Assembly: GCA_000496135.1 (NCBI GenBank)
Contig: KI542674.1
Location: forward strand, 62,001 to 126,000
Length of the DNA: 64,000 nucleotides
Reading direction: 5' to 3'
From: Thermoplasmatales archaeon E-plasma
GTDB lineage: Archaea; Thermoplasmatota; Thermoplasmata; Thermoplasmatales; Thermoplasmataceae
Shown: positions 20,883-26,956 of the stretch, piece by piece
Numbering within the stretch: the first letter of the stretch is position 1
Layout of the letters: every line of letters begins with the position of its first letter
Notes under the pieces: generated by a model
The model's input: the letters and a program-made list of their open reading frames with translations, nothing else
Databases searched by the model: none
Told to the model about the DNA's origin: nothing
Made by a program: the position numbers and the translations under genes

Positions 20883-23800
20883 ATGTATGTTGAGTCTTTG
20901 GAAATTGATAATTTTAAATCGTTTGGAGTAAAAACAAAAATTCTATTCGACCAGGGTTTCACCGTTATAAGCGGACCAAACGGCAGTGGCAAGAGTAACA
21001 TAGGGGACGCGTTTTTATTTGTGCTGGGAACAAGGTCTTCAAAGACCGTAAGAGCCGACAGGTTAGGCGATCTCATTCATAACGGAAAAACCAGAAGAAA
21101 TTCGTGCTCTGTCTCAATAAAATTCAGTCCTTCAGAAAAGGATCAAATAAAAGAAAAAGTGGAAATTACAAGGATTATAGAGGGTGTCAATGGAGATGTA
21201 AAGAGCACATATTATTTGAATGGAAATCGTGTCAGACATAACGATATCGAGGAATTTCTTCAGAGCATAGGCTTGCTTCTTGATTCTTATGGCTTTGTTT
21301 TACAGGGTGATATTAACAGAATTATAGAAATGAGCGGAATAGAGAGAAGAAAATTACTTGAATCAATAGCTGGAATTGAAGGCTACAATATTCAAATTGA
21401 AAAGGCAAAATCTGACATGGATAAGATAAATCAGGATATATCCACACTTGGAACATTGAGAATCGAAATTGAAAGCAACATGGAAAAACTGGCAGTTGAA
21501 GTTGACCGGCTTAGAAAATTTAAGGAAAAGGAAAAGAGGCTGAAGTCTCTAAAAACCACTTATGTCGAACTGGAAATTATGGAGTGTAAAACGGAAATAT
21601 CGAAAATTGACGGCCAAATTGTTGTTGCCGAACAACAACTTGAAAAATTCAATGAAGAAAGAAAAATTGTCCAGAGCAGGATTTCTGAATTAAATGAAAG
21701 AAAAACAAAGGCAGAGAACGGGGTAGGTCAGGAAACCCAAACCGAACTCAGGTCCATAAAAGAAAAACTGGAATCATTTCTCCTGCAAAAAGCACAGATC
21801 GATGTGAATGTGGATAATCTTAACAATTCACTTTCAGACCTTCGTCTAAGGCTTGAGGAAAAGGAAGAAAGAATAGGAGAGATAGAGAAAGATATGGGTA
21901 AAATCGGGAGCAAAATATCTCTCAGCGATCAGGAATTATCAAAGAAGAAAGAGGAACTGGAGAGCATCAATGAGAAGATCAGCAGTATTATGCATTCATC
22001 TTCCATGAAAATTTCCAGAACCAACGAGCTTACCATAAAAATCAAGGATATTGAATCAAAAAAAGCGAAACTTGAGCAGGAGCTCCATGATTCTGAAAGA
22101 GAGGCTGAGAAACTTAGAGTTCAGGTGGAATCCAGAAAGGTGGAACTTGGGAAGAAGGAAGAACTCCTCACGAATGCAAAGTACAGAATGGCGGAATCCA
22201 AGTGGAAACTCCAGGATATCCAGAAAGGAACATCCGGTAAAAAAACCACTCTGGATAAACTTAATAAATCATACTATGAACTCCGAAATCTAATAAAAGA
22301 TCTCGAAGATGAAAGGTCTTCAATCGGCACAAAAATTCAGACCCTGGTCAGGGAAGTGGAGAGACTCTCAGCGACATCATCTCAGGTATACGGCATGCAG
22401 AAGTCAGTTAAGGCAATACTGGATGCAAGAAATCGTGGAGAAATTAGCGGTATTCACAAGACTCTAGGTGAACTGATTACATACGATGATTCACTCACTC
22501 TTGCTGTTGAATCAGCAGCTGGATCTAAGCTGAACTCTGTTGTTGTGGATAATGAGAATGTAGCAGAAGAGTGCATATCACTCCTTAAGGAAAGCAAGCT
22601 TCAGCGTGCAACCTTCCTTCCAATCTCAAAGATGCAATCCGGACGCCCCAGAGGAAAAGCGATCATGGTAAAGCAGTCTGGAGAAACAATGGGTCTGTTA
22701 TCGGAAAACATCAAATATTCTCCTGAATATGAAAACATAATCTGGTATGCTTTCCAGGATACAATCCTTGTAAAGAATATAGAAATTGCAAAGAAACATA
22801 TGACAGGTGTGAGAATAGTAACACTTGATGGTGATATTTTTGAATCAAGTGGGGCCATCAGTGGAGGATTTCTGGAACGAAGACAGAGAAACAGAGGCGC
22901 TGATGAACTTCGCCAGAAAGAGCAGGATCTACAATCACTCAGAAACAGGGAACAGGAATTGAAAACTGAGCTTTCAGATATCAAAGCAAAATTTGAGGAT
23001 GTATCGACTGAATTACTTTCCATATCAAGCAGTGGGGGGGAGGAAAAGGGAAAGGTAGATTCCATTACGGCAGATATTGAATCTGCAAGAAAATCCATTG
23101 AGTCCCTTGAGCTTGAAATATCCGGAATTAAAAACCTGTTTTCAGAAGTTGATGCAGAATATGCAAAATCAGTTACTGCTCTTGATGACCTGAAGAGACA
23201 GTCTGCTCTTCTGGATAATGAGAGGATTCAGCTAATACAGGAGATGGGAACAGAGGAGGATCCTGGATCAAAAAAGCTATCAGAATTACAGCAGAGGAAG
23301 GATCATATCGAACTGGAGATATCAACAACCAAATCAATAGTATCAGAAAACAGGGGGAGAATGAATGAACTTTCCCTTAGAAAGGAAGAATTGATGAAAG
23401 AAATTGGTGACATAAAGATACAGATGAATTCCGGTTCCTTAAAAAGAAAGGAATTCAATGATGCAAAAAGAGAAACTGAAATAAACATTGAGAAATACCG
23501 GCTTTTGGAACAGGAACTTGATATTGCATCCAAGAAACTGCTGGATGAGTTAAGGGAAATCAATAATGGTATTCAGGAAGCCTTTGCAGAGGACAATAAG
23601 ATCAGAGATAAGATTTCATCCACGGAAAACGTCATAATAACAGCAAAGGTGAAAAAGGATTCCCTGAATGAACGCATCACAAATTATGAAGAAGAATCAA
23701 AGACCATTGGCGGCACCGTGGAATCATTTGGAATGTCAATGGCACAGATGAAATTCGAAATTTCCATAGCTGAAAATGAAATAGAAAACTGGGGACCGGT

Positions 23801-24398
23801 CAATGGTCTGGCTGAAGAAGAATATACGAGGATCAAGGAAAGAATTACAGAAATTCAGAATGATACCCGGAAACTTCAGGAGGAGAATGAAAGTTTGAGG
23901 AACCTCATGCTTGAACTTGAAGAGAGAAAGAAGAATGAACTCCTGACACTGTTCAGGAAGATCAGGGAAAATATGAAAGTCATATATAGAGCACTATCCG
24001 GAGGAGGTGAAGTTGAACTGTTAATGTCCGACGAATCAGATCCTTTAAACACAGAAATACATATCAGAGCGAGCCCAAAGGGAAATGCGTTCACAAAGCT
24101 TTCTGCTCTGAGCGGCGGGGAGAAGAGTCTAACGGCAATGGCATTTATCATGGCAGTTCAGAACATCAAGCCTTCACCGTTCTATTACCTTGATGAGGTT
24201 GATATGTTCCTTGACGGATCAAATGCAGAACGGATAGGAAGTATGCTTAAGGCCAATTCCTCTTATGCTCAGGTTATGATGATTTCACTGAAGAAGGCTC
24301 TTCTGAAATATGCAGATTCATTGATTGGTGTAACTATGGTGGACGGGGAAAATACACAGGTTTTCCAGAAAAAGGTTGGGGAGGCTGATCCGTTTTGA
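20883..24398 (+). CDS. smc: Chromosome segregation protein SMC
   Basis: 1171 residues, normal for an archaeal SMC. The N-terminal ATPase half has GPNGSGKSNIGDA (Walker A, residues ~32-44) and VLQGDINRII (Q-loop region). A coiled coil runs from ~165 to ~480. The hinge (~490-660) includes KAILDARNRGEISGIHKTLG, VVVDNENVAEECI and the Gly-rich GAISGGF. A second coiled coil (~670-1010) leads to the C-terminal half with LSGGEKSLTAMAF (signature) and FYYLDEVDMFLD (Walker B). It forms the ring-shaped motor that loops chromosomal DNA, with ScpA (next gene, 4-base overlap) and ScpB (15503). Confidence 0.96.
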   Translation: MYVESLEIDNFKSFGVKTKILFDQGFTVISGPNGSGKSNIGDAFLFVLGTRSSKTVRADRLGDLIHNGKTRRNSCSVSIKFSPSEKDQIKEKVEITRIIEGVNGDVKSTYYLNGNRVRHNDIEEFLQSIGLLLDSYGFVLQGDINRIIEMSGIERRKLLESIAGIEGYNIQIEKAKSDMDKINQDISTLGTLRIEIESNMEKLAVEVDRLRKFKEKEKRLKSLKTTYVELEIMECKTEISKIDGQIVVAEQQLEKFNEERKIVQSRISELNERKTKAENGVGQETQTELRSIKEKLESFLLQKAQIDVNVDNLNNSLSDLRLRLEEKEERIGEIEKDMGKIGSKISLSDQELSKKKEELESINEKISSIMHSSSMKISRTNELTIKIKDIESKKAKLEQELHDSEREAEKLRVQVESRKVELGKKEELLTNAKYRMAESKWKLQDIQKGTSGKKTTLDKLNKSYYELRNLIKDLEDERSSIGTKIQTLVREVERLSATSSQVYGMQKSVKAILDARNRGEISGIHKTLGELITYDDSLTLAVESAAGSKLNSVVVDNENVAEECISLLKESKLQRATFLPISKMQSGRPRGKAIMVKQSGETMGLLSENIKYSPEYENIIWYAFQDTILVKNIEIAKKHMTGVRIVTLDGDIFESSGAISGGFLERRQRNRGADELRQKEQDLQSLRNREQELKTELSDIKAKFEDVSTELLSISSSGGEEKGKVDSITADIESARKSIESLELEISGIKNLFSEVDAEYAKSVTALDDLKRQSALLDNERIQLIQEMGTEEDPGSKKLSELQQRKDHIELEISTTKSIVSENRGRMNELSLRKEELMKEIGDIKIQMNSGSLKRKEFNDAKRETEINIEKYRLLEQELDIASKKLLDELREINNGIQEAFAEDNKIRDKISSTENVIITAKVKKDSLNERITNYEEESKTIGGTVESFGMSMAQMKFEISIAENEIENWGPVNGLAEEEYTRIKERITEIQNDTRKLQEENESLRNLMLELEERKKNELLTLFRKIRENMKVIYRALSGGGEVELLMSDESDPLNTEIHIRASPKGNAFTKLSALSGGEKSLTAMAFIMAVQNIKPSPFYYLDEVDMFLDGSNAERIGSMLKANSSYAQVMMISLKKALLKYADSLIGVTMVDGENTQVFQKKVGEADPF

Positions 24399-25186
24399 AT
24401 ACCAGTGATGTGCTTGCAAGCATAATTACGCAATCCACAATTCTTGATATTGATCACAAGAAGTATATCGAACTAAGTGAAGATCAGAAGCATGAAACCC
24501 CCATTTCAAAAATTCTGTCAAAGACAATGGAATTATGCAAAGAGGGAAAGATAGACCCATGGGATGTTGATCTCGCCTCTTTCAGCAGGATAATTTATGA
24601 TCTTGTTTCAGATGGAACCTTGAACTTGCCTGATGCCGGCGTCTTAATATCTGCAGCCTGGAGAGTACTTTCCATGAAAGGCGATAGTATTCTGGGAAAG
24701 TTCAGTGAGAGAGAATCTGAGGATGAATATAACAGTGAGAATTTTGAACCCTTTGAAGATGAAACATTCCTCAACGGAGAAACCGAGCATTACATGAGCA
24801 GAAGTTCAATTACACTTATGCCTGCACCTGTCTTTCACAAGGAAAGAAGGAAGGTTATGCTCATTGAACTAATGGAGGCAATAAGCACAATTGATCTCAC
24901 AAGTCACCAGAAGGAGAAGAAGGTTCTATCGCCCATTTTGTCCATGGACGAAATTTCCAAAAGATTGAATTCTGAAGAACCTGAGGAGGAGATACAGAAA
25001 GTATGGAGCAGAATCGTTGAACTGAAGGAAGATCAATGCTTTATGGAAGATATCTGGGGGCACACCGTTGAAGATAAATCAATGTTTTTCGTCTATTGCA
25101 TGTTTCTTTACAGGAATGGAAAAATAACCTTAAATCAGGAGGAACCATTTGGATCCATTAGGATAAAGAGAATGGAAAATGCCTGA
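24395..25186 (+). CDS. scpA: Segregation and condensation protein A (kleisin)
   Basis: 263 residues from a TTG start that overlaps the smc stop codon (TTGA), so translation is coupled. The N-terminal domain carries KIDPWDVDLASFSRIIYDLV, the kleisin signature that binds the SMC neck. A linker of acidic residues (~110-135) joins it to a C-terminal winged helix (KVLSPILSMDEISKRL to LNQEEPFGSIRI) that binds the SMC head. It closes the SMC ring. It overlaps the nuclease gene downstream by eight bases, placing that gene in the same transcript. Confidence 0.9.
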   Translation: MNTSDVLASIITQSTILDIDHKKYIELSEDQKHETPISKILSKTMELCKEGKIDPWDVDLASFSRIIYDLVSDGTLNLPDAGVLISAAWRVLSMKGDSILGKFSERESEDEYNSENFEPFEDETFLNGETEHYMSRSSITLMPAPVFHKERRKVMLIELMEAISTIDLTSHQKEKKVLSPILSMDEISKRLNSEEPEEEIQKVWSRIVELKEDQCFMEDIWGHTVEDKSMFFVYCMFLYRNGKITLNQEEPFGSIRIKRMENA

Positions 25187-25945
25187 AGACGACGGTATGA
25201 TTAGCGCCTCTGAGATGTCAGAATTCGAGTTTTGCAGCGTCTCATGGTATCTGGATAAGGAAGGTTACCCCAGATCCGGCTTTTCTTCACAGAGAATGCA
25301 GAGAGGAATAGAGATGCATCGGAGAGTTCATACAGGTTATTCCAGAACAGGTGGTGCTATGAAATTTCTCATTGTTATTTTTGTTCTGATTCTTGTTTTC
25401 CTGATTTATCTATATTTGGGGGGGACTGTACCCTGAACCCTTTTTTCCTGTATGCTGGAATTCTTTTCCTTGTTGTAATATTAGTTTTAATAGTCCTGCT
25501 AAGGAAGAAGAGACAGGTATATTCAATACCGGCCGGGAGAGCCGTATATGGTGACTTGCAGTCGGAAGGCAAAACACTTATCTCCAGAAGATATGGTCTG
25601 ACTGGAAAGCCTGATCGTGTCATTCGCAAGGGGGACGAACTTATACCGTATGAATTTAAGAGCACGGAAGCTGATTCACCCAGAACGGGTCATCTTCTTC
25701 AAATGGGTGTATATTTTTTAATTTTGGAGGACAACTATGCAGGTGCAGTGATAAATAAAGGGGTGCTGAAATACAGAACAAGAGCATTTGAAGTTCGTAA
25801 TACGCCGGAACTGAGGGAAAGAGTCCTTAGAACGGCTCAGTTAATGAGGTCAATGAGAGGGGTGCCCAGAAGAAATCATGATAACCCTGGAAAATGCTTC
25901 AAATGTTCCTTTAAGGAAGTCTGTTCCCAAAGATTAATAAAATAA
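25179..25945 (+). CDS. Membrane-anchored Cas4-like PD-(D/E)XK nuclease, frame broken at a G7 tract
   Basis: Two reading frames make one protein. Frame one (25179-25436) gives SASEMSEFEFCSVSWYL (first Cys of a Cas4/AddB-type Fe-S site), RGIEMHRRVH (motif His) and a hydrophobic helix ending LYLGG, then stops. Frame two, open from before the stop to 25945, continues with a second helix (NPFFLYAGILFLVVILVLIV), GKPDRV (Asp), IPYEFKSTE (Glu-x-Lys), LLQMGVYF (Gln/Tyr) and CFKCSFKEVC (last three Cys). All nuclease and Fe-S residues are intact on both sides. Joining needs a -1 shift, or one missing G, in GGGGGGG at 25418-25424. About 254 residues joined. Role with SMC-ScpA is unknown. It could be an assembly error, programmed frameshifting or a recent mutation. 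Confidence 0.75.
25418..25424 (+). other. G7 tract where the Cas4-like frame shifts
   Basis: In the first frame the codons are tat-ttg-ggg-ggg-act-gta-ccc-tga, with the stop at 25434-25436. The preceding bases give tttggggggg, a plausible slippery run for -1 slippage. Homopolymers of this length are also common sites of sequencing indels. Confidence 0.6.
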
Positions 25946-25963
25946 GTGAATTTCAAGGTGATT

Positions 25964-26956
25964 ATGGCAAAAATTGACCTCTCGCTTTTTCAGGAGGTAA
26001 TAACAAATGAAGAGCTGGACTCACTTGATTTATCGAAATCAACTGCGTATATAGGATTTGAGCCTTCAGGAACAGCACATATAGGAACAGGTCTGATGTG
26101 GACCGATAGAATAAACAACCTCATTTCGGCAGGGGTAACAGTGAAGGTTTTAATGGCTGACTGGCACGCAATGATAAATGATAAACTTGGAGGGGATCTT
26201 GAGAGAATAAGGGAGAGCGGAAGACTGATGGTGAAAACCTTTAACGCTCTCGGGATGGATCCAAAAGTCCAGATAATATGGGCTTCTGATATGGTAAGCT
26301 CTCCTGATTACTGGATGGAAATGCTGAAAGTGGCTAAAAGCTCCAGTCTTTCAAGACTGAGAAGAGCTTTACCCATCATGGGAAGATCGGAGGATGATGC
26401 AGACAGGGATTTTGGAAAATATATCTATCCTTTGATGCAGGTCACTGATATATTCAGACTGGATGTTGATATCTGCATGGGTGGTATGGATCAGAGACAC
26501 GCTCACATGCTGGCCAGGGATATTGCAGAAAAAATTGGGGCAAAAAAGGCAATTTCTCTTCATGGCCCTCTAATAGGCAGCCTGAAGGGAACAGGAAGAA
26601 TGGATTCAGAGAATTTCAAGAAAATGTCCAAAAGTGATCCGGATTCAGGAATCCTTGTAAGCGATGCCCCGGAGGAAATAAAGAGAAAAATAAACCAGGC
26701 TTTCTGCCCAGTTGGGGAAACTAAGGGAAATCCTGTTATAGAGATTGCAAAATTTGCAATATTACCAAGAACTCATACCCTTGAGATTAAAAGACCCGAA
26801 AAGAAGGGCGGGCCAATATATATTAACAGCGCAGAAGAACTTGAATCTCTCTATTCTCAGGAGAATATTCATCCAATGGATCTAAAGGCTTCTGTCACTG
26901 ATTATCTAATAAAAATACTTGAACCTGCGAGGGACATATACAAAGGAAATCCGTAG
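25964..26956 (+). CDS. tyrS: Tyrosyl-tRNA synthetase
   Basis: 330 residues from ATG 25964, preceded by aaggtgatt, which contains the GGTGAT anti-16S sequence. An upstream in-frame GTG at 25946 would add six residues and is less likely. AYIGFEPSGTAHIGTGLM is the Rossmann start with the HIGH-like HIGT. YPLMQVTDIFRLDVDICMGGMDQRHAHMLARD is the tyrosine and ATP pocket, and KKMSKSDP is the KMSKS loop. The compact length and lack of an S4 domain are those of archaeal/eukaryotic TyrRS. It is the last gene of the smc run. Confidence 0.95.
   Translation: MAKIDLSLFQEVITNEELDSLDLSKSTAYIGFEPSGTAHIGTGLMWTDRINNLISAGVTVKVLMADWHAMINDKLGGDLERIRESGRLMVKTFNALGMDPKVQIIWASDMVSSPDYWMEMLKVAKSSSLSRLRRALPIMGRSEDDADRDFGKYIYPLMQVTDIFRLDVDICMGGMDQRHAHMLARDIAEKIGAKKAISLHGPLIGSLKGTGRMDSENFKKMSKSDPDSGILVSDAPEEIKRKINQAFCPVGETKGNPVIEIAKFAILPRTHTLEIKRPEKKGGPIYINSAEELESLYSQENIHPMDLKASVTDYLIKILEPARDIYKGNP

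Follow-up and report, generated by a model that had tools for sequence, protein, structure and literature searches.

Genes at the Locus

The window, by which we mean the whole stretch of 64,000 nucleotides that was analyzed, carries on its forward strand a conserved cluster that opens with smc (20883–24398), whose product contains SMC_N (Pfam, 8e-55) and a hinge; in the loci L002–L025, which represent 12 genera, smc likewise lies upstream of the pair of reading frames described here. The next gene, scpA (24395–25186), was assigned from synteny and from Pfam matches to SMC_ScpA (2e-4, just under the cut-off) and Rad21_Rec8 (0.013). Its start is apparently a TTG on the smc stop codon (TTGA, 24395–24398), so that smc, scpA, and ORF1 each overlap. 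ORF1 (25179–25436) shares eight bases at its 5′ end with scpA and stops at a TGA (25434–25436). ORF2 (25433–25945) lies in the −1 frame relative to ORF1, with a putative CTG start on the ORF1 stop (CTGA), and its own stop ends at 25945. A tyrS-like gene for a class I aminoacyl-tRNA synthetase (25946–26956; Pfam tRNA-synt_1b, 7e-43, and synteny) is the downstream gene of the cluster. The run GGGGGGG (G7, 25418–25424) is located in ORF1, eight nucleotides upstream of the CTG.

ORF1 encodes the motif E-F-x-F-C (here EFEFC) with a Fe-S cysteine and the motif G-x-x-x-H (GIEMH) with the motif-I histidine, followed by a single hydrophobic helix (TM1) and its outside end. ORF2 encodes a second hydrophobic helix (TM2) and then GKPD, E-F-K, Q-x-x-x-Y (QMGVY), and CxxC...C (CFKC...C). 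Among three congeners, pN/pS is 0.12–0.21 for ORF1 and 0.08–0.18 for ORF2, against a value above 2 for the control, the ORF1 DNA read in the −1 frame; hence, neither reading frame is a product of chance.

Cas4-Type Residues and Fold

Read as one chain, the two frames match PDDEXK_1 (PF12705) at 3e-11 and Cas_Cas4 (PF01930) at 3e-8, both above the Pfam cut-offs, and ORF2 alone matches Cas_Cas4 at 1e-8. The Cas4 models of PADLOC were matched by ORF1 at positions 3–46 only (6e-4) and by ORF2 at about positions 51–167 (5e-19). All four cysteines, one N-terminal and three C-terminal, are present in each of the 120 aligned rows, and the catalytic residues are nearly as constant (His in 116 rows, Asp, Glu, and Lys in 119 each, Gln in 118, and Tyr in 120). 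The Cas4-type residues and their conservation, both claimed in the preliminary description of this DNA, are thus well founded. In the split forms, however, they are divided: the N-terminal Fe-S cysteine and the motif-I histidine belong to ORF1, and the Asp, the Glu-x-Lys, the Gln/Tyr, and the three other cysteines belong to ORF2. The motif-I histidine is replaced in four rows. Locus L025 (genome G033) has lost the histidine of ORF1 together with the Glu, Lys, and Gln of ORF2 but retains all cysteines. L025 is probably a pseudoenzyme, and such a joint loss across both frames, seen in this one case, would be expected of a shared active site.

The equivalent four cysteines of Cas4 bind a single cluster, and SSO1391 loses its activity when H80 is mutated to alanine (H80A; PMC4176176, PMC3466216); in our reading, H80 is the motif-I histidine. 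A Foldseek search with the model of a split pair gave Cas4 as its nearest solved structures (8d3l, 7mi5, 4ic1, and 4r5q), with E = 5e-7 and a TM-score of 0.68 on the target for 8d3l_I. The figure for an uncut orthologue was 0.66, and its nearest solved structures were Dna2 and Cas4.

Predicted Membrane Topology

The mean numbers of Lys and Arg are 3.5 before TM1, 4.7 after TM2, and 0.3 in the outer ends, a positive-inside pattern from which both soluble parts are predicted to lie inside the cell with about five residues outside. An in-frame split pair was modeled with AlphaFold2 by reading through its stop codon (pLDDT 87, pTM 0.82). In this model, a helix comprising residues 42–89 ends at the stop, the hairpin turns there, and TM2 begins at residue 92; the uncut orthologue (pLDDT 94.4, pTM 0.87) turns at residues 88–91. 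Joining two cistrons into one chain favors their association, so the model is no proof that the separate chains associate. The membrane hairpin that had been proposed earlier is supported.

Conservation of the Two-Piece Structure

The joined protein served as query against 60 related genomes. Nearly every orthologue in the window's family consists of two separate pieces or of one frame interrupted by a stop; in all the orthologues examined there, from 12 genera, both frames recur and the cut falls at the hairpin tip. A second family of Thermoplasmatota, f24, has the split pair in at least 15 genera. In three genomes, the split pair is a second copy beside a single-chain membrane copy (L193/L198 in G076, L026/L194 in G058, and L027/L195 in G039). 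The split pair also occurs in Isosphaerales planctomycetes, where it is annotated on two closed plasmids, from Paludisphaera borealis and Singulisphaera acidiphila, as two RefSeq genes with a four-base overlap (ATGA), ORF1 being called hypothetical. Three planctomycete loci were recorded (L095, L096, and L097); the L097 copy, with no match to ORF1, has apparently decayed. Many other families across the phylum have uncut single-chain relatives of 270–400 aa or more, in which the hairpin is uncut or enlarged. Four single-chain loci (L168, L169, L170, and L178) have very long open frames of 510–906 aa, in which additional sequence precedes the nuclease or separates its parts. Another locus, L188 of family f7, also looks split and has a long branch.

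At the 82 split loci, the start of ORF2 lies at −1 of the stop in 29 and elsewhere within −7 to +8 nt in 25. The junctions include ATGA, TTGA, and CTGA overlaps (−1), TGATG (also in the −1 frame), TGAGTG and TAAATG (frame 0), and TGAxATG (+1). Thus, the frame of ORF2 relative to ORF1 takes all three values while stop and start codons abut, which no frameshift mechanism explains but which two cistrons with abutting stop and start do. In the preliminary description, the locus had been taken for a single gene split by a frameshift, with a single uninterrupted ORF expected in the orthologues; the orthologues instead share the split, in the family and beyond it. That description had also held that an independent start of the second ORF would speak against a single gene, and most orthologues do have ATG, GTG, or TTG at the junction. 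Several loci (L009, L026, and L193) are without a common start codon there, which counts against two genes.

To trace the history of the split, we used the nuclease domain alone, with almost no columns from the TM helices. In the careful tree of 84 rows, from which L188 was left out, the label split or single changes once, on a branch with support of 100/95 that is present in 100% of bootstrap trees, compared with a mean of 26 changes for shuffled labels. The tree of 121 rows shows two changes, one of which is the long branch L188. With Cas4-type outgroups, the branch of which is very long, the root falls at a trichotomy, so that the history may have involved a single fission, two of them, or one fusion at a later stage.

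Putative Start Codons at the Junction

In the window, the first ATG, GTG, or TTG of ORF2 is found only at 25556, and the CTG at 25433 overlaps the ORF1 stop. Each of the three members of the genus found to have the pair keeps this CTG on the TGA. The upstream run is GGGGGGG in two species and GGAGGG in the third (L004), where the frame relation between ORF1 and ORF2 is unchanged; such a replacement is expected of a ribosome-binding site and not of a slippery one, and G7 is probably the Shine–Dalgarno sequence of the CTG start. The break had been put down to one base in GGGGGGG, but the run is not conserved even among the congeners, while the break recurs throughout the orthologues of the family.

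A similar arrangement was observed in f24, in which 26 of 27 one-base-overlap junctions contain GAGGTG or GGGGTG, 25 of them at an identical position. The Glu/Gly-Val dipeptide at the junction is always encoded by GAG or GGG and GTG, against background usages of 41% for GAG, 17% for GGG, and 27% for GTG. The overlap codon is mostly ATA (20/27) and less often ATG, TTG, TTA, or GTA, so most of the f24 loci (L110–L116 and L141–L163) would start ORF2 at an ATA on the ORF1 stop behind GAGGTG or GGGGTG, and part of the junctions is accounted for only by ATA or TTA starts. From these junctions, we infer initiation of ORF2 at CTG in the window's genus and at ATA in f24. Both are weak start codons, in the latter case in most of the family, and this counts against the two-gene reading.

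Programmed −1 frameshifting at G7, an in-phase slippery G_GGG_GGG, would instead yield a full-length protein with ORF1 alone as a by-product. The phase of the run suits such slippage, ORF2 is in the −1 frame at many split loci, and a fused chain would fold like the single-chain relatives. Nevertheless, we regard this mechanism, on which the full-length product had earlier been suggested perhaps to depend, as very unlikely: the GGAGGG of L004 is unable to slip likewise, yet the frame relation there is identical; ORF2 follows the stop in frame 0 or +1 in other genera; and no slippery site is conserved before the stops of f24, where the last sense codons vary (TTA, CTA, ATA, and TTT). The homopolymer at the break and the draft state of the window's genome could also point to a sequencing or assembly error, or to a recent pseudogene. 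The comparative data leave this next to no credibility and effectively refute it, since the identical break is present in independent assemblies and, without a homopolymer, in L004, both frames are under purifying selection, and the break is kept across families and in closed plasmids.

Gene Neighborhood and Candidate Roles

The order smc–scpA–ORF1–ORF2–tyrS was found in every examined carrier of the window's family with a contig long enough to show it (12 genera), in agreement with the gene order proposed earlier for the orthologues. The coupling to smc–scpA is therefore strict within the family, but it is absent from every other lineage looked at, namely f24, other orders, single-chain forms, and planctomycetes. 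In f24, the neighbors are an ABCE1/RLI-like gene, an eRF1-like release factor gene, and PrsW, and on the planctomycete plasmids they are mobF and DNA methyltransferases; we saw no constant partner gene across the lineages compared. A common neighbor suspected from gene lengths (about 590–611 aa) proved to be of unrelated families (ABCE1/RLI-like, PLD, and SIS/GATase). As for a viral origin, two IMG/VR scans gave one weak match without TM helices and none, respectively, and a phage collection gave none.

These neighborhoods bear on what the pair might do. Work specifically with SMC–ScpA in chromosome segregation or repair is the role that the family's strict gene order would suggest, yet we think it improbable in view of the unlinked lineages and of the f1 genera without the pair, which keep smc–scpA while the pair and tyrS are both missing from that place; the earlier proposal that the nuclease acts on DNA being segregated is accordingly a guess. 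A true Cas4, serving CRISPR adaptation, would agree with the Cas4 profile and fold matches but is highly improbable: in the window's family the neighbors are smc, scpA, and tyrS, with no cas1 or cas2 found beside the pair, ORF2 scores 61 bits with NCBIfam TIGR00372, under the equivalog cut-off of 65, and Cas1 does not correlate with the pair, no Cas1 match being found in 6 of the 15 family carriers with nearly complete genomes and Cas1 being present in 6 of 7 non-carriers. The window's own genome also has a separate Cas4–Cas1-type ORF of about 560 aa on another contig (L221, G000:C3:164000-165900). A membrane-stationed barrier against incoming DNA, whether from uptake, plasmids, or phages, is compatible with a split nuclease as its role and has a somewhat better, though still minor, chance of being right. 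The membrane topology and the plasmid copies beside mobF and methyltransferases are in its favor, but the archaeal copies are chromosomal and outside recognizable defense islands, and the only PADLOC matches are Cas4 and the related nuclease DruK. Processing of ssDNA or flaps at the membrane is the most economical suggestion, while exclusion of incoming DNA and a function with SMC are possibilities.

Discussion

The residues of the iron–sulfur site and of the catalytic center are divided over two genes, which suggests assembly from two proteins that meet in the membrane. We consider it very probable that the two translationally coupled genes encode a heterodimeric, membrane-tethered Cas4-type PD-(D/E)XK nuclease. 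ORF1 would supply N-terminal helices that bear the first Fe-S cysteine and motif-I histidine and lead into TM1, and ORF2, starting on the ORF1 stop codon (at CTG in the window), would supply TM2 together with the nuclease core and the other three cysteines. The soluble portions of both would be cytoplasmic, and TM1 and TM2 would pair as a hairpin with the chains cut at its tip, so that the Fe-S cluster and the active site would form only once the subunits meet. The predicted activity, on the cytoplasmic face of the membrane, is metal-dependent and either that of an exonuclease on ssDNA or that of a flap nuclease.

AddB, AdnB, Dna2, and EXO5 share the iron-staple core of the RecB-family nucleases with the pair; they are single chains, mostly fused to helicases. 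To our knowledge, none of them is membrane-inserted or split, and Cas4, like the AddB-type nucleases, is known as a single-chain enzyme. Cas4 (DUF83/PF01930; SSO0001, 4ic1; Pcal_0546, 4r5q; I-C Cas4, 8d3l) shares with the pair the fold, the four-cysteine iron staple with one N-terminal and three C-terminal residues, the RecB motifs I–III, and QhXXY (PMC4176176, PMC3466216). Unlike Cas4, the pair consists of two polypeptides, has a TM hairpin between the motif-I helix and the core, and is without a cas1/cas2 neighborhood. Solo-Cas4 and the pfam12705 Cas4-like nucleases are likewise Cas4-like proteins outside CRISPR loci; the main text of the survey of solo-Cas4 mentions neither Thermoplasma, SMC, nor split forms, and the word "membrane" appears in it once, in connection with a gene unrelated to these (PMC5704561). 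In the case of plant mitochondrial CcmF, algal COX2, and yeast split-Doa10, membrane proteins are naturally split, and the fragments reassemble in the membrane (PMC3464245). The pair is likewise a divided membrane-protein gene, but here the active-site and Fe-S residues of a nuclease are divided between the fragments.

In the open-access literature searched, including PMC5704561, PMC11237513, and PMC3711429, which misses most subscription papers, we found no earlier description of the pair, and a split membrane Cas4-type nuclease is apparently undescribed so far. On balance, the pair is probably an ancient, obligate two-subunit membrane nuclease with its Fe-S cluster and active site spanning two co-translated proteins, a nuclease that persisted while the archaeal families diverged, that planctomycete plasmids have in common with them, and whose second subunit is initiated at a codon other than AUG (CUG or AUA) on the stop codon of the first. 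For annotation, the finding is a correction, as ORF2 of the window would otherwise be given a wrong start or taken for a pseudogene with a frameshift. A distinct and testable point concerns archaeal initiation, which would use CUG in the window's genus and AUA in f24, each downstream of a strong ribosome-binding site; AUA would be unusual. The division of an iron staple and catalytic center over two membrane proteins appears stable over much of the phylum and through inter-domain transfer, and this stability opens the purpose of the split, such as controlled assembly or an activity confined to the membrane, to direct test.
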